IMG/VR virus record: IMGVR_UViG_3300044691_000358
Coordinates: 1-27,715 of that record
Direction: 5' to 3' (one strand)
Length of the DNA stretch: 27,715 bases
Origin: a virus
Part shown: in pieces, positions 2,989 to 24,748 of the stretch
How the letters are laid out: the number at the start of each line of letters is the position of its first letter
Numbering within the stretch: the stretch's first letter is position 1
Translations under genes and position numbers: made by a program
Notes under the pieces: generated by a model
The model's database searches: none
Seen by the model: the letters and a program-made list of their open reading frames with translations, nothing else
What the model was told of the DNA's origin: nothing

Positions 2989-3579
2989 ATGGAACTGATG
3001 CTCAAGAACGTACGTATCGCATTTTGCCAATCCGCACTCGGTGACGCCGAAGACTACGAAGGCAACAAGAACTTCCGCCATTCGGCCACGTTCATTGTCG
3101 AACCGGGCAGCGCGAACGACAAACTGATCCAAGACGCCATCAAGACCGAAGCGGCAACGCTTTGGGACAAGAAGGCGGAAGGCATGCTCGAAGACATGCG
3201 CGGCAGCAAGACGCAATGGTGCTACCCGAAGAACAAGAAGGACAAGTCCGGCGAAGTGTACGAAGGCTTCGAAGGCGTGTTCGCGCTGGGTTCACACCGC
3301 AAGCAGAAGGACGGCAAGCCGACGTTGCTTGACAACATCAAAGATCCGGCCACGGGCAAGGCTGCAAAGTTGACGGGAAACGAAGGTCGCTTGTACGCCG
3401 GCTGCTACGTTAACGCCAAGGTCTCGATCTACTGCCAGGCGGGCACCAACAGCGGCGTTCGCTCTTCACTGCTCGGCATCCAGTTCTGCCGGCCGGGCGA
3501 TAGCTTCGGCGGTGCGGGTGTTGCGAAGGACGATGAGTTCGACGCGATTGACGCGCCGGAAGGTGACGACCTCGCCTGA
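2989..3579 (+). CDS. DUF2815 family protein, ssDNA-binding-like
   Basis: 196 residues, ATG preceded by AAGGAAAT. The body is beta-rich with the typical DUF2815 order: LKNVRIAFCQSAL at the start, HSATFIVEPGS, a loop region ending in DKSGEVYEGFEGVFAL, then GRLYAGCYVNAKVSIYC and a final IQFCRPGDSFGG. It ends in an acidic tail, DDEFDAIDAPEGDDLA, like those of single-strand binding proteins of the T7 gp2.5 and bacterial SSB type. In the family this protein is thought to bind ssDNA at the phage fork. It sits between the DUF2800 nuclease and the polymerase, as expected. Confidence 0.88.
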   Translation: MELMLKNVRIAFCQSALGDAEDYEGNKNFRHSATFIVEPGSANDKLIQDAIKTEAATLWDKKAEGMLEDMRGSKTQWCYPKNKKDKSGEVYEGFEGVFALGSHRKQKDGKPTLLDNIKDPATGKAAKLTGNEGRLYAGCYVNAKVSIYCQAGTNSGVRSSLLGIQFCRPGDSFGGAGVAKDDEFDAIDAPEGDDLA

Positions 3580-9827: not shown

Positions 9828-11141
9828 TCAATAGTGCCACTCTAAAGCGTAGCCGAGGTCTTGAAGCACGGGAAGCTGCTTCTCTAAGCGCTCGCCGATA
9901 TCGTCCCGCCAGCCAGGGGAGTGCGATATCTCTATGGTTTTTAACGCGCGTTTGGCGCGCTTCTGAGCCCCGTGTATGTCGAAGTCTGTCCCTGTTGCGA
10001 TCAGCACGTAATCGCCGCACGTAACAGGGCCTTTCTTGTAGACAATTTTGTCGTCTTCCTCGTCAACCACGTCGCCGAGCATGACTTCGCAAAAGTGAAT
10101 GTCTTCCGTCACCAGGCGTTCAGTGTTGTAAATCGGATAGCCGGTACAGTTCCGCTTGGTATACTGCGTGAAGGGGTAATCAGGAATGGAAACAACGATA
10201 CCGATTGCGGTTTCGTCGAGCACTTCTAAAGTGTCTTCGCCACGAAGCATGTCGAGCATCCAATTTGCAGGATCGCCGGCGTGTAAGGCGCAAGAAATCG
10301 TAAAGCACGGCCAGCCGGGGCGGCTAGTAGCTTCAAGGGGCCACGGGACGCCTTTATCGTCAATAATGCAAGCCATATCGAAATAGCCGCGAAAGCTGAT
10401 CGAGTGGAGGTAGGACGTGAGCGGCGTCAGGAGCTTGTCGGCGAGTTTTGACTCTTTGACATACCGCATGGCGGTGCCTTGCTCGCCGGTAGACACACCG
10501 CTGTCGCCAGGCAAATGCTTCTTGAATTCAGCGTTTTCTAAGAACCACTTTGACCAACCATTCTTACCGAACCAACCGCCGACCGCCATCTCGATACCGC
10601 CGACGAACGGTTGCAAAATGAAACCTTGCGTCTGCGGCTGCTCTTTCTTCCAACGGTCAAGCATGCCGATCATGTCGCGAGCGCTTTTGCTGACATAAGA
10701 CAATGCCTTATCGACGTCACCATTCGGCTTGCTGACAAAGCGCTCCATCTTGTCTGCAACATAACGCTTGGCTTCGTCGTAGTCAGTGAACGCGGTCGAA
10801 GGCATCGTTTTGATGCCTACCTTTTTGAAAACGTCTTGCCCAAACTGACGGTCAAGTTCGAGTTTCGCGCCGGCTTTATTCGGGCCGAAAATCGGGTACC
10901 CCTTGGCGAAATAAGGTTCCAGTTCGTCCATCAGATTTGCGTTATCGCTGAGGACAATTAGCGATGCCCACCCCATGTGAGCGCGCCAGTCGGCGACTTT
11001 ATGGACGTAGCCGTCGCCGATAGGGTTTCGCTTCTCACCGTTTCGCGGCATCACCCACAAGCGCACATCGTGGCCCACGTCAATGCAGCGCATAGCGAAA
11101 TCGAGCATTCCCCCGACGCAATCCACCAACAGTATTTTCAT
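9828..11141 (-). CDS. PurD-like ATP-grasp enzyme
   Basis: 437 residues, about the length of phosphoribosylamine-glycine ligase. Residues 1-85 form a Rossmann-like N-domain (MKILLVDCVGGMLDFAM). FGPNKAGAKLELDRQFG at 85-101 and GIKTMPSTAFTDYDEA match the PurD A/B-domain entry. FVSKPNGDVDKALSYVSKS, ILQPFVGGIEMAVGGWFG (Glu184) and PWPLEATSRPGWP (Glu270) give the ATP-grasp nucleotide and metal positions. Where PurD has LEFN-x-R, this protein has LEAT-x-R, so the metal-binding Asn is Thr. The C-terminal third (GIVVSIPDYPF, GYPIYNTE) is PurD-like but divergent. It should ligate an acid to an amine using ATP; whether that is glycinamide ribotide synthesis is not established. It is the first gene after the promoter at 11170-11197. 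Confidence 0.82.
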   Translation of the reverse strand: MKILLVDCVGGMLDFAMRCIDVGHDVRLWVMPRNGEKRNPIGDGYVHKVADWRAHMGWASLIVLSDNANLMDELEPYFAKGYPIFGPNKAGAKLELDRQFGQDVFKKVGIKTMPSTAFTDYDEAKRYVADKMERFVSKPNGDVDKALSYVSKSARDMIGMLDRWKKEQPQTQGFILQPFVGGIEMAVGGWFGKNGWSKWFLENAEFKKHLPGDSGVSTGEQGTAMRYVKESKLADKLLTPLTSYLHSISFRGYFDMACIIDDKGVPWPLEATSRPGWPCFTISCALHAGDPANWMLDMLRGEDTLEVLDETAIGIVVSIPDYPFTQYTKRNCTGYPIYNTERLVTEDIHFCEVMLGDVVDEEDDKIVYKKGPVTCGDYVLIATGTDFDIHGAQKRAKRALKTIEISHSPGWRDDIGERLEKQLPVLQDLGYALEWHY

Positions 11142-11169
11142 GGTTGCTTAATCCTGATTGTTTGCGTAG

Positions 11170-11197
11170 AGTATAGCGCAAGGCTTGGCGGCCTCAA
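11170..11197 (-). promoter_or_regulatory. Candidate local promoter for the ATP-grasp and lysis genes
   Basis: On the minus strand -35 TTGAGG (11197-11192), 16-base spacer ending in TTGCGC, and -10 TATACT (11175-11170), 28 bases before the ATG at 11141. It resembles the early promoters around the -10 but lacks the TGn extension. It would restart leftward transcription downstream of the HNH insertion. Confidence 0.5.
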
Positions 11198-11204
11198 ACA
11201 ACGC

Positions 11205-11284
11205 AAGGCTTCACATGCCGGCTGACGGGTGCGTTCCCGTTCCGCCAACGTTCGAAAGAGCGAGCCGGCAGGTGAAGCCTTTTT
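11205..11284 (+). promoter_or_regulatory. Predicted three-way-junction RNA with terminator-like tail, leader of the HNH gene
   Basis: A 19-base stem pairs 11205-11223 with 11263-11281 (18 of 19 pairs, one A-G mismatch). Inside are two hairpins: 11225-11229 with 11236-11240 (ACGGG/CCCGT, hexaloop, extendable by a G-T pair) and 11249-11253 with 11258-11262 (CGTTC/GAGCG) closed by a GAAA tetraloop. The second hairpin abuts the long stem with no spare base. The GNRA loop indicates function on the plus strand, where the stem ends in TTTTT. It lies 18 bases before the HNH ATG, so it may attenuate that gene or be a stable RNA. No known family is recognised. Confidence 0.6.
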
Positions 11285-11302
11285 CACGGGTGAAGCACCG
11301 AC

Positions 11303-11854
11303 ATGCCTCGCAAAGACCCCGCAGCAAGAAGCGCATACGAAAAAGAATGGCGCGAGCGAAATAAAGAACACCGCGCAGCGGTGAAGAAAGCTTGGGTTCA
11401 AGCAAACTTCGAGAAACAAAGCCAAAAACAGAAAGACTGGCGCGCCAACAACAAAGAACGCGTTCGGGCCAATCTTCAAGCCTACTACGCCGTCCACAAA
11501 GAAGGCATGCTTGAGCGAGCGAAACAGTACTACCAAGAAACGAAGCCCGAACGGGCGGCGGCCATGCGCAAATGGCAAAGAGAGAACGCCGGTAAGGTCA
11601 ACGCCTATTGCGCCGAAAGGAATACCCGAAAACTGCAAGCGAGTCCGAAATGGGCGGACAAGGACGCCATCAAAGAGAAGTACGAGGAAGCCGCTTTCTT
11701 GACGGACATTCTCGGCGAACCTTACCACGTTGACCACATCGTGCCCCTGAAGTCACCTTTTGTTTGCGGCTTGCATGTCGAGTTCAATTTGCAGGTTATT
11801 CCAGGGTCGGAAAACTGCAGCAAACAAAATCGCCACTGGCCGGATATGCCTTGA
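11303..11854 (+). CDS. HNH endonuclease (free-standing, homing-type)
   Basis: 183 residues, oriented against the late operon. Residues 1-115 are highly basic and helical with repeated W-R/K-x-x-N-K-E units (EWRERNKEHRAAVKKAW, KDWRANNKERVRANL, KWQRENAGKVNAYC), likely DNA-contacting. The HNH core is YHVDHIVPLKS (Asp144-His145), VCGLHVEFNLQVIP (Asn162), then ENCSKQNRHWPDMP (Asn171, Lys174). No CxxC zinc finger is present, unlike the second HNH gene at 24233-24748, with which it shares the C-terminal half. The binding site before ATG is poor (GGGTGAAGC). The structured leader just upstream may control it. Such genes nick or cut cognate phage DNA and spread by repair. Confidence 0.9.
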   Translation: MPRKDPAARSAYEKEWRERNKEHRAAVKKAWVQANFEKQSQKQKDWRANNKERVRANLQAYYAVHKEGMLERAKQYYQETKPERAAAMRKWQRENAGKVNAYCAERNTRKLQASPKWADKDAIKEKYEEAAFLTDILGEPYHVDHIVPLKSPFVCGLHVEFNLQVIPGSENCSKQNRHWPDMP

Positions 11855-11878
11855 CATTCATTTTGCATTTGCTATACT
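11851..11878 (+). promoter_or_regulatory. Near-consensus promoter for the small membrane protein gene
   Basis: -35 TTGACA (11851-11856, overlapping the HNH stop codon), 16-base spacer, and TGC then -10 TATACT (11873-11878). The spacer part TTTTGCATTTGC is identical to that of the promoter at 5911-5939. It is the strongest-looking promoter in the window. Confidence 0.8.
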
Positions 11879-11904
11879 GAAATCACACAAACAGGAGAAA
11901 CAAA

Positions 11905-12192
11905 ATGCTCGAAATCGCCGGCGGTATCATTCTTGCCTTCATCGTCATTTGCAACTTTGAAGCCGTATTCAAGTTCGCGTATTACGCAATCGCTATCGGG
12001 GTTATCCTCTTTATCGCCGCTTGCGGTATCGACCTTTTCTTCCGCCAAACGCACGACGATCAGCTTGTTTTTCTAGGCTTCTGCGCCTTCGCGGGTCTTC
12101 TGCTCTATTTCTACGTGAAGAACGATAACAAGAAGACGGCTAAGGAACTCGCGAAGATGCATTCCGAAGCCGTCGAGTATCATCAACGCTGA
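11905..12192 (+). CDS. Small three-segment membrane protein, moron-like
   Basis: 95 residues with AACAGGAGAAACAAA before the ATG. Hydrophobic segments lie at about 4-17 (IAGGIILAFIVICNF), 24-45 (FAYYAIAIGVILFIAACGID) and 54-71 (LVFLGFCAFAGLLLYFYV), followed by a Lys-rich cytoplasmic-type tail (KNDNKKTAKELAKMHSEA). It has its own promoter and points against the late operon, overlapping the end of the ejection-protein gene by 10 bases. This arrangement is typical of accessory genes expressed independently of the lytic programme. Superinfection exclusion is a reasonable guess but is not shown by any motif. Confidence 0.75.
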   Translation: MLEIAGGIILAFIVICNFEAVFKFAYYAIAIGVILFIAACGIDLFFRQTHDDQLVFLGFCAFAGLLLYFYVKNDNKKTAKELAKMHSEAVEYHQR

Positions 12193-14132
12193 GAGTCGTC
12201 TCGCTGTGCGTTTAGATTCGACTGCTCGGTGGTCTTGGAGCTAGCAACGTTGCGAGCACGCGCGAAGTCCACGATTCGGTCAACCGCCTGTTTCGAGACG
12301 CCGGCATCTTTCAACCTCTGCACGCCGCCCGGTTTCGTTGCGATATCGATCATCGCAAGAGCTTGCTTCTCCGGGATCTTGAACTCATGCGCCAGGCGCA
12401 ATGCGGTCCCGAGCCCTGGAATAGCTTTGCTCGCCGCCACGTTCACCCCGTGGGAGGCCATACGTGCCTCGTTTTCGGTGTGGAATTCCGCTTGGTGACT
12501 GCCGCCCTTGCTAACGTCAGCACTAACCCGCTGACGTGCGGCTTCCTTCATAAACACCTTGCGGATATCGTTGGCGCTCTTATCGCCCAAGACTTCCACG
12601 AGCTGCGGATCACGCATGCGGTCTGCGATCTTTGTCAGCGAACCCTCCGACATGCGGCCGGCGTCGTTAATGTACTTCTCTAACCCGTCAACCATGCCGA
12701 GCTTGGCGTATTCCTTCTGCTCTGCGTTCATCCCGCGAAACGCTTCAATGTCAGCATTCTTGAGACCAAACGCGTAGCCATGCCCCCATTGCTGTGCGCC
12801 CAAAATACCCGTCTTCGACTCTTCGCCGCCGAGTCGCGCCGCCAGTTGCTGAGCGTTCACGATGTTGCCGGTCTGCTGACCCTTAAGCGCGCGCTGCGCT
12901 GCGCTCAACGTGCCATAACGGATAGAGCCCGTGCCTTCGTCTTCAGCCGCCTTGCCGACAGCTTTTTGCAGATCGTCAAGCGCCGCTGAAGGAATGGAAG
13001 TAAGTTGACCGTCTTTAACGCGTGGTTTGGGCGCGGCCTGCAGATCTGAGATACCCGCTTCACGCCCTGATTTGAAATCGCGCATCGCGTGTTCGAACAA
13101 CGGTTTGACTTCAGGGTGGTCGAGAATTCGTTGCAACTCAGGCGTAACCGCCACGCTTTCTGTTTTCGAAAGCGTGTACGTGTCCTTGCGCTGCGTCTGA
13201 AGTTTTTCGATGTTTTCAATCATCGATTCCTTCGTCCGCTGCAACGGCTGAGTATCGGCTACGCCGCCGGTGATTCGGCCGGCCTGCCCCGAAGCGTCCT
13301 GGCGCAGAGTGTCACCTAAGGCTTTCGCGGTGCCTTGAGTGCGACCGCCTTCTTTCCCTACGAGCGAAGCCACCTTCGGGCTGAAGTCGGCCAAGCGCCC
13401 GTCCGGGTTCGCGCGCATGTACTCCGCGAGTTCGGAAACGCTTTTGCCGTCTTTCTTCAGCGCGCCCTTCAACTGTTCGGCGGCTGCGCGACTCGCATCG
13501 AAGCCGATAGCGCCCATACGGTTCAGGAGCGGTGCCGCCAGCGTTCCGAGAGCGGAGAGCCCCAAGGATCCAAGTGCGCCAATCGCGGCACCTTCAACGC
13601 CTTTGCGGACGTGCTCGCCGGCGGATGCGTCTGTCGATACGCTGTTGGCCCCCATAGCGCCTCCCATAGCGCCTCCCACTGCCGCGCGGCGCGCGACAAG
13701 GCCCATGCCTGCCGCGCCTACTTTGGCGGCGTTGGCTTCACCTAAGCCTGGGATTAACCCGGTTGCGCCTGCTACGGCAAGATCGATCCCAAAGGCCGCT
13801 AAAGGATGGTCGGCCCTATAATTCTTCTCAGCATCGCGGATGCTGGCCTCCAGTTGTTTAGCGCCGACCCAGCCGGCTACGCTCGCAGCGCCACCTAACG
13901 TGGCGGACTGCAGTGCGGTTGCGCCGATGCCTTTCGCGTCGAGAGCACTCGTTTCCGGCTTTGCCGGCTGCGGTGCTGCTTTAGGCTTCACGCCGGGCGA
14001 AACTTTCGGCTGGTACTTTTGCTTAAGTGCCGCCACTTGCGCCGGTGACGCGCCGCCGTACTGCGCCACGCGCGAGTCGCCCGGGTCTTGGTACGTTACG
14101 CCGTCGCTGGTGCTGCCGAGATCGTCCGCCAT
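12183..14132 (-). CDS. Ejection-type internal virion protein
   Basis: 649 residues, ATG directly after the TAA of the SLT-domain gene (TAAATG). The N-terminus is Pro/Lys-rich (KQKYQPKVSPGVKPKAAP). Residues about 65-205 are Ala/Gly-rich and moderately hydrophobic (GATALQSATLGGAASVAGWV, AVAGATGLIPGLGEANAAKV, ARRAAVGGAMGGAMGANSV, IGALGSLGLSALGTLAAPLL), as expected for a protein that inserts into membrane. The remainder is charged and helical. With the two genes upstream it forms a set of three large proteins placed like P22 gp7/gp20/gp16, which leave the capsid with the DNA. No sequence motif proves this; the assignment rests on composition and position. Confidence 0.7.
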   Translation of the reverse strand: MADDLGSTSDGVTYQDPGDSRVAQYGGASPAQVAALKQKYQPKVSPGVKPKAAPQPAKPETSALDAKGIGATALQSATLGGAASVAGWVGAKQLEASIRDAEKNYRADHPLAAFGIDLAVAGATGLIPGLGEANAAKVGAAGMGLVARRAAVGGAMGGAMGANSVSTDASAGEHVRKGVEGAAIGALGSLGLSALGTLAAPLLNRMGAIGFDASRAAAEQLKGALKKDGKSVSELAEYMRANPDGRLADFSPKVASLVGKEGGRTQGTAKALGDTLRQDASGQAGRITGGVADTQPLQRTKESMIENIEKLQTQRKDTYTLSKTESVAVTPELQRILDHPEVKPLFEHAMRDFKSGREAGISDLQAAPKPRVKDGQLTSIPSAALDDLQKAVGKAAEDEGTGSIRYGTLSAAQRALKGQQTGNIVNAQQLAARLGGEESKTGILGAQQWGHGYAFGLKNADIEAFRGMNAEQKEYAKLGMVDGLEKYINDAGRMSEGSLTKIADRMRDPQLVEVLGDKSANDIRKVFMKEAARQRVSADVSKGGSHQAEFHTENEARMASHGVNVAASKAIPGLGTALRLAHEFKIPEKQALAMIDIATKPGGVQRLKDAGVSKQAVDRIVDFARARNVASSKTTEQSNLNAQRDDSQR

Positions 14133-24232: not shown

Positions 24233-24748
24233 TTAAGGCATGTCCGGCCAGTGAAGGTTTCGTTTCTTCCAGTTGTCAACCGCTGGAAGGACTTGCAGAT
24301 TATCTTCGCAATGCAGACCGCACACTAACTTTGACCGCAAAGGTACGACGTGGTCTACGTGGTGCAGTACGCCGCTCATCTCTGTTGCTTCCCGCGCCAT
24401 TTCGTAAAACATAGCGATGTAGCGCTGATCTGCCCACGCTGGGGTCGCTTTTATCCGCCGGGCATTCCGCTCTCTTTGGCGTTGCGCGTCGTAAGGCTTG
24501 TTGTCGGCGCGCCACGCGCGTGTTCTTTCGAGCATCAGTTCGCGGTTCTCGTCGCGGTATTTAACTACGGATGCCTTAGCTTTTTCCGGATGGCGCTCGC
24601 GGTATTCGGCGCTCCAACGAGCCGCGCACCCCGGGTCTTTTGCGTTCCGTTCCCGGCGCCAAGCGTTGTAGCACATCTTGCAGTAAGACTGGCCCTTGGT
24701 GAACATTTCCAAGGGTTTATCCGTTTCGCATTTCGGGCAGGTTTTCAT
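24233..24748 (-). CDS. HNH endonuclease with N-terminal zinc finger (free-standing, homing-type)
   Basis: 171 residues. Cys4, Cys7, Cys23 and Cys26 (CPKCETDKPLEMF, SYCKMCYNAWRR) make a zinc ribbon. Residues 30-105 are basic and helical. The HNH core is LHHVDHVVPLRS (Asp132-His133), VCGLHCEDNLQVLP (Asn150), then DNWKKRNLHWPDMP (Asn159, Lys161). It is a diverged relative of the HNH protein at 11303-11854, with the same C-terminal ending. The gene sits between two virion genes in the same direction. A TATAAT with TGG extension ends seven bases before the ATG, and there is no Shine-Dalgarno sequence, so a leaderless transcript is possible. Confidence 0.9.
   Translation of the reverse strand: MKTCPKCETDKPLEMFTKGQSYCKMCYNAWRRERNAKDPGCAARWSAEYRERHPEKAKASVVKYRDENRELMLERTRAWRADNKPYDAQRQRERNARRIKATPAWADQRYIAMFYEMAREATEMSGVLHHVDHVVPLRSKLVCGLHCEDNLQVLPAVDNWKKRNLHWPDMP

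Follow-up and report, generated by a model that had tools for sequence, protein, structure and literature searches.

The stretch of DNA analysed here, referred to as the window, is a viral record of 27.7 kb. It comes from a tailed phage and has a replication cluster on the plus strand and a structural cluster on the minus strand. Inside the structural cluster, on the plus strand, lie a structured RNA and directly behind it the gene of an HNH homing-type nuclease (Table 1). Eight related contigs were fetched via the upstream ATP-grasp-like gene (9828–11141, minus strand). The block of RNA and HNH gene is missing at the same place in six near relatives (L003–L008) and is thus dispensable in close relatives. 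A search of the whole records of L003, L004, L005, L006 and L008 with the covariance model described below, R1, returned no RNA copy, although several of these records may be fragments. The homologue L009, found independently via synteny, carries the RNA at the same place (75% identity in the blastn piece) together with a divergent HNH gene. The window and L009 nucleases are just 40% identical, yet the RNA fold is kept. The RNA has kept its fold at a site away from replication genes, whether the RNA-HNH block moved there or persisted there. Elsewhere in the window, positions 71–424 hold a low-complexity repeat encoding repeats rich in Ala, Ser and Trp (AESAAWSA...), at the end of the frame 205–879 on the minus strand.

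Table 1. Coordinates of the structured RNA, its parts and its neighbours in the window.
Feature	Position	Strand	Evidence or remark
Promoter-like TTGCTT-17-TAGAGT	11144–11172	+	Comparison with relatives; transcription start expected at about 11179
Inserted block: promoter, RNA and HNH gene	11145–11848 (limits approximate, about 700 bp)		Absent in L003–L008
Whole structured RNA	11179–11284	+	Model R1 match 11179–11283, 95.4 bits
P0 hairpin, AGGC/GCCU, loop UUGGCG	11181–11194	+	Covariation in 5/5 pairs
Pseudoknot A, 5' half (P0 loop UUGGCG)	11185–11190	+	Partner CGCCAA, 11243–11248
Pseudoknot A, 3' half CGCCAA, between P3 and P4	11243–11248	+	Partner UUGGCG, 11185–11190
Pseudoknot B, 5' half AACGCA (P0-P2 linker)	11200–11205	+	Partner UGCGUU, 11230–11235
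Pseudoknot B, 3' half UGCGUU, within P3 loop	11230–11235	+	Partner-swap test
P2, 5' strand	11205–11223	+	Partner 11263–11281; compensatory changes in 17/18 counted pairs
P2, 3' strand	11263–11281	+	Covariation
P3 hairpin ACGGG/CCCGU	11225–11240	+	4/4 counted pairs covary
P4 hairpin C-GUUC-GAAA-GAGC-G	11249–11262	+	4/5 pairs covary; GNRA tetraloop in most members
U-tract TTTTT after P2, intrinsic-terminator arrangement	11280–11284	+	U4–U9 in relatives
HNH (endonuclease-VII-like) homing-type nuclease, 183 aa	11303–11854	+	PHROG 1035 endonuclease VII, E 5e-9; PHROG 26577, E 6.5e-25

The RNA is laid out as a three-way junction of the helices P2, P3 and P4, with a 5' hairpin, P0, and two pseudoknots, A and B. 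An earlier note, made from the sequence alone, had drawn a 19-base stem with two internal hairpins, a GAAA loop and a TTTTT end, and this fold is borne out by folding of the region 11195–11310 (plus strand). The computed energy of −50.6 kcal/mol compares with −36.1 ± 3.2 kcal/mol for dinucleotide shuffles (z −4.5), and none of 200 shuffles equalled it. The drawing had the three-way junction right and lacked P0 and both pseudoknots. P2 is a 19-position main stem with one mismatch, A11215.G11271, and a mismatch in the middle of P2 (A.C or A.G) is conserved across family members. The GAAA tetraloop of P4 occupies 11254–11257. Model R1, among whose 34 rows the window is itself one, matches the window at E 1.4e-23 (95.4 bits), and the window RNA possesses every feature of the model, namely P0, P2, P3, P4 with a GNRA-type loop, and pseudoknots A and B.

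The window RNA is a member of a widespread, apparently undescribed family of structured RNAs, found in more than 100 viral contigs, mostly of freshwater phages, and in one cultured lytic phage. The search pattern, TTGGCG-G...CCGCCAAC....GAAA, was built from two motifs common to the window and L009. In a scan of viral contigs it matched 109 stretches; the U-tract is in place in 94, of which 56 are distinct. A widened pattern admitting a GNRA loop gave at least 119 matches. A similar pattern, run through 257 billion bases of prokaryote genomes, produced three matches, all model-negative; as it required GAAA and UUGGCG, this result shows only that the prokaryotes sequenced so far have this exact form rarely or not at all. 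With so small a yield from prokaryotes, and all of it model-negative, the viral matches are not explained by chance. Comparison of the whole window with Rfam 15 (4227 models) gave nothing at or above a gathering threshold, and at E ≤ 10 there were only chance matches of microRNA, snoRNA or sRNA type, far under threshold. Because its stems turn over fast, the RNA by itself retrieved little in a BLAST search of named phages; the copy in Iodobacter phage phiPLPE, which is described as lytic (PMC3391216), was found by a protein-guided search. This unannotated copy lies at 3154–3253 of EU876853, 16 nt before phiPLPE_09, whose product gp09 weakly resembles Phage_ProQ_C_like, at a level below threshold (E 0.014). 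The RNA is present as a single copy in each of the 22 whole-searched phage records that have it, as in the complete genomes of phiPLPE and MW202544. A tyrosine integrase match was obtained in 3 of these 22 records, many of which are fragments.

The earlier note had named covariation as a check on the structure and a lack of compensatory changes as one possible refutation; hundreds of such changes were found. In an alignment of 49 sequences, which includes divergent matches obtained without the search pattern, 97.7% of cells are paired (slid controls, 37–45%) and compensatory changes on both sides occur in 34 of 38 pairs. Similarly, 97.3% of cells pair among 34 diverse members (slid controls, 36–45%), with both-side changes at 30 of 41 pairs and 310 compensatory cells, compared with 83 in shuffles. 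Pseudoknot A was tested on loci fetched via replication proteins because the search pattern imposed it. All six positions pair in 49/49 sequences, with double changes at four positions, and the variants UUGACG/CGUCAA, UUGGCA/UGCCAA and UGGGGA/UCCCCA occur in matches not picked by the pattern. For pseudoknot B, a partner swap reduced the mean helix from 6.2 to 3.8 bp, and 0 of 2000 permutations did as well as the native pairing. P4 loops of GAAA, GCAA, GUAA and GAGA are seen among matches not picked by the GAAA pattern. Between the window and L009 RNAs, 31 of 104 aligned positions differ; of the model pairs, 20 are unchanged, 8 differ on both sides and 2 on one side only, and the 2 that are broken lie at the foot of P0. 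As judged from these sequence comparisons, the fold is placed beyond chance, and so intricate and strongly conserved a fold suggests more than a plain terminator.

Upstream of P0 there is usually a predicted sigma-70-like promoter. Hexamers resembling a −10 box (TAnnAT) occur 16–20 nt before UUGGCG in most of the 34 diverse relatives, with a best match of 4.26/6 against 3.07 in shuffles, and from a box at that distance the transcription start is placed at the foot of P0. Some family members, the window among them, match the −10 consensus poorly. In the window, a strict promoter scan left out TTGCTT/TAGAGT, a weak match whose assignment comes from comparison with relatives. On the minus strand, a promoter-like TTGAGG-16-TATACT at 11197–11170, within the RNA 5' region, points toward the ATP-grasp gene and is a possible divergent promoter.

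At the other end, nearly all members of a set of 62 distinct loci continue directly from P2 into U4–U9 (mostly U6–U9); L073 is the one pattern match without a U-tract. The start codon of the next gene lies 7–20 nt past the U-tract in 55 of the 62 loci, the outliers including truncated or wrongly started frames. This spacing holds regardless of gene family, the genes concerned being initiators, HNH, GIY-YIG and YqaJ-like genes and small ORFs. The distance to the gene upstream varies much more, with a median of 21 and an upper quartile of 144. In the window, U5 is followed 18 nt later by the HNH ATG, and the earlier proposal of a real structured RNA that ends, shortly ahead of the HNH start, in a terminator-like U-tract is upheld. 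A strict terminator scan of the window did not list P2 and its U-tract, and the P2 stem, unlike textbook terminators, encloses a 40-nt branched loop. A further strong promoter-like sequence, TTGACATTCATTTTGCATTTGCTATACT, lies at 11852–11880 (plus strand), overlapping the HNH stop codon and preceding a 95-aa ORF (11905–12192); a near copy is found at 12815–12761 of L009, ahead of another gene.

The genes behind the RNA are mostly those of DNA replication. Of 97 mapped loci, 74 have a replication initiator no more than 1.5 kb downstream, of FQHFKDR or DUF1376 type with a Pfam PF07120 match. When phages were picked solely by an FQHFKDR initiator, the RNA stood in front in 53 of 80, and among those picked by a DUF1376-type initiator it did so in 16 of 80. 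In several phages, Cro-like genes lie on one side of it and the replication operon on the other. Often, a homing-type nuclease is inserted between RNA and initiator, which may be HNH, AP2-like or GIY-YIG-like (the latter two named by eye), and the slot is a possible homing hotspot. Nucleases of several families stand directly behind the RNA at L013, L029, L031, L035, L038, L041 and L048, and further such loci are L051, L052, L071, L099, L100 and L108. Most likely, the window HNH gene has borrowed a replication-gene leader and travels with it.

The same slot can be filled by another RNA. The int-alpA RNA (RF02996) lies before DUF1376-type initiators at L299 (42.7 bits) and L309 (38.7 bits), which suggests that RNA leaders before replication initiators are a general device. 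It or its relatives replace the new RNA upstream of initiators at L155, L167, L172, L190, L193, L299, L309 and other loci. Two of the int-alpA-like loci score above the Rfam threshold and one just below it; since most fall under the threshold, the Rfam family looks too narrow.

On balance, we consider it rather probable that the locus holds a phage leader that is autonomous and ends in a terminator. From its own promoter it would give a short stable RNA and, by limited read-through, the mRNA of the next gene. Transcription would begin at P0, and the nascent RNA would form a compact domain with both pseudoknots, which the long P2 helix closes. P2 and the U-tract would then halt most polymerases near nucleotide 105, and the RNA so released would be short and protected at its 5' and 3' ends. 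A minority of polymerases would pass and transcribe the next gene, which has its ribosome-binding site right after the U-tract and is a DNA-replication initiator in most phages and the HNH nuclease in the window. By carrying the leader along, the HNH gene may gain low or conditional expression. Owing to its own putative promoter, its predicted transcription stop and its position directly before these genes, the RNA probably controls the DNA-replication or mobile-nuclease genes behind it. The attenuator and the short stable RNA, both offered in the earlier note, remain the leading candidates as far as the arrangement of the sequence can tell. Leader-peptide attenuation was rejected, as by eye the RNA holds no conserved reading frame, given that the P2 sequence turns over completely.

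Tentatively, the RNA could do more than set a fixed level of read-through. It is possible, if doubtful, that the double-pseudoknot domain around the terminator responds to a ligand, to a protein of phage or host, or to polymerase itself, and so actively decides whether polymerase or ribosomes enter the replication genes. Such RNAs would form a new class of phage regulator, one that mobile nucleases have repeatedly exploited by inserting behind it or carrying it. No conserved partner competing with P2, such as the expression platform of a riboswitch would provide, was found in relatives, and therefore no on/off switch is obvious.

It is unlikely, yet deserving of weight, that the RNA is a stand-alone phage sRNA acting in trans, in replication or immunity control or as a host-factor decoy, which merely adjoins early genes expressed from elsewhere. 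Its apparent promoter and terminator, its occurrence once per genome and its very stable closed fold would all suit such a role, and the similarly arranged Gifsy-1 IsrK and P4 CI RNA do act in trans (PMC4825925). However, tight spacing to a start codon whatever the gene, and the joint move of RNA and HNH gene, are not expected of an unlinked sRNA; nor is there a conserved free loop for a target, nearly all conserved nucleotides being paired.

Its location in several phages, flanked by Cro-like genes and the replication operon, is close to that of HK022 putR and lambda nutR, and HK022 putRNA is proof that a phage RNA alone can antiterminate (PMC9378689). The new RNA might likewise bind polymerase, at the beta' zinc-binding domain in the case of put, and permit expression of the replication operon by carrying polymerase past its own terminator and those further on. 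This is improbable, as putRNA has no terminator at its own end, whereas here a predicted terminator closes the structure, and the window copy precedes just one or two genes.

Slightly less probable still is a translational leader, in which an intact P2 frees the ribosome-binding site and, once the foot of P2 opens, the P2 3' end and U-tract block it. The mean helix between the P2 3' end with U-tract and the ribosome-binding region is 5.9 for a locus's own tail, compared with 4.9 for shuffled tails (maximum 5.3) and 5.0 for swapped ones (maximum 5.4), examples being GGCUUUUUUU/GGAAAAAGCU and UAAGUCUUU/GGAGACUUA. This modest signal is helped by poly-U/poly-A composition and comes from related loci that are not independent; the pairing is of 3–5 pairs at many loci, and no such hairpin comes near P2 in stability. 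The alternative hairpin GTGAA/TTCAC of the earlier note gains a little support, in general form, from this looser complementarity, while the exact hairpin is weak (−2.8 kcal/mol alone, about 8 kcal/mol to force) and is not conserved.

That the RNA is a recognition structure, guide or target site of the HNH nuclease, as the earlier note had considered for the first of these, is very improbable. Nucleases of unrelated families often lie behind it, and homing may favour the RNA gene or its border as a site. Yet most copies precede replication genes, most have no nuclease behind them, some precede nucleases of unrelated families, and HNH relatives occur without the RNA. These structure-free HNH loci, which the earlier note had named as refuting evidence, are L002 and the window's second HNH gene of the same family (24233–24748, minus strand; 40% identical, same WPDMP ending). 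The RNA is not specific to HNH genes.

The new RNA family is of a known general kind. It is well supported, escaped all of Rfam's models and stands at a control point of phage DNA replication. The recurrence of unrelated homing-type nucleases behind it suggests how such genes gain regulated expression. HEARO and omega RNA likewise lie beside an HNH gene, but their Rfam models have no match in the window, their size differs and their obligate nuclease linkage is not shared; the earlier note had set them apart and assigned the RNA to no known family, in agreement with the Rfam result. Rfam ribozyme models have no match in the window, few conserved bases are unpaired, and HDV- or pistol-like topology was considered by eye. 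Like the new RNA, HK022 putRNA is a structured RNA in a lambdoid early operon; unlike it, putRNA is about 70 nt long, with two stem-loops and no terminator of its own (PMC9378689).

Closer parallels are found in RNAs of prophage Gifsy-1 and of P4. In Gifsy-1 IsrK, a promoter, a short phage RNA, a Rho-independent terminator and a read-through mRNA of the next phage gene have been shown experimentally (PMC4825925), an arrangement that in the new family is read from sequence. Behind IsrK come orf45 and anrP, and behind the phiPLPE RNA, similarly, a single ORF followed by an antirepressor gene. IsrK works through pairing with the orf45 RNA (PMC4825925); no Rfam match links the two RNAs, and the IsrK paper mentions no pseudoknot. 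The P4 CI RNA, or SeqA RNA, is likewise a small phage RNA in a replication-gene leader, linked to the premature termination that keeps the P4 replication genes off (PMC4825925). It is processed from a longer leader and works as an antisense RNA, whereas the new RNA appears to have its own promoter and terminator, and the likeness is one of description. Finally, the int-alpA RNA shares the slot before DUF1376-type initiators in sister phages, with a different fold and sequence (its covariance model finds no match in the window), and this shared slot gives the int-alpA RNA a testable role.
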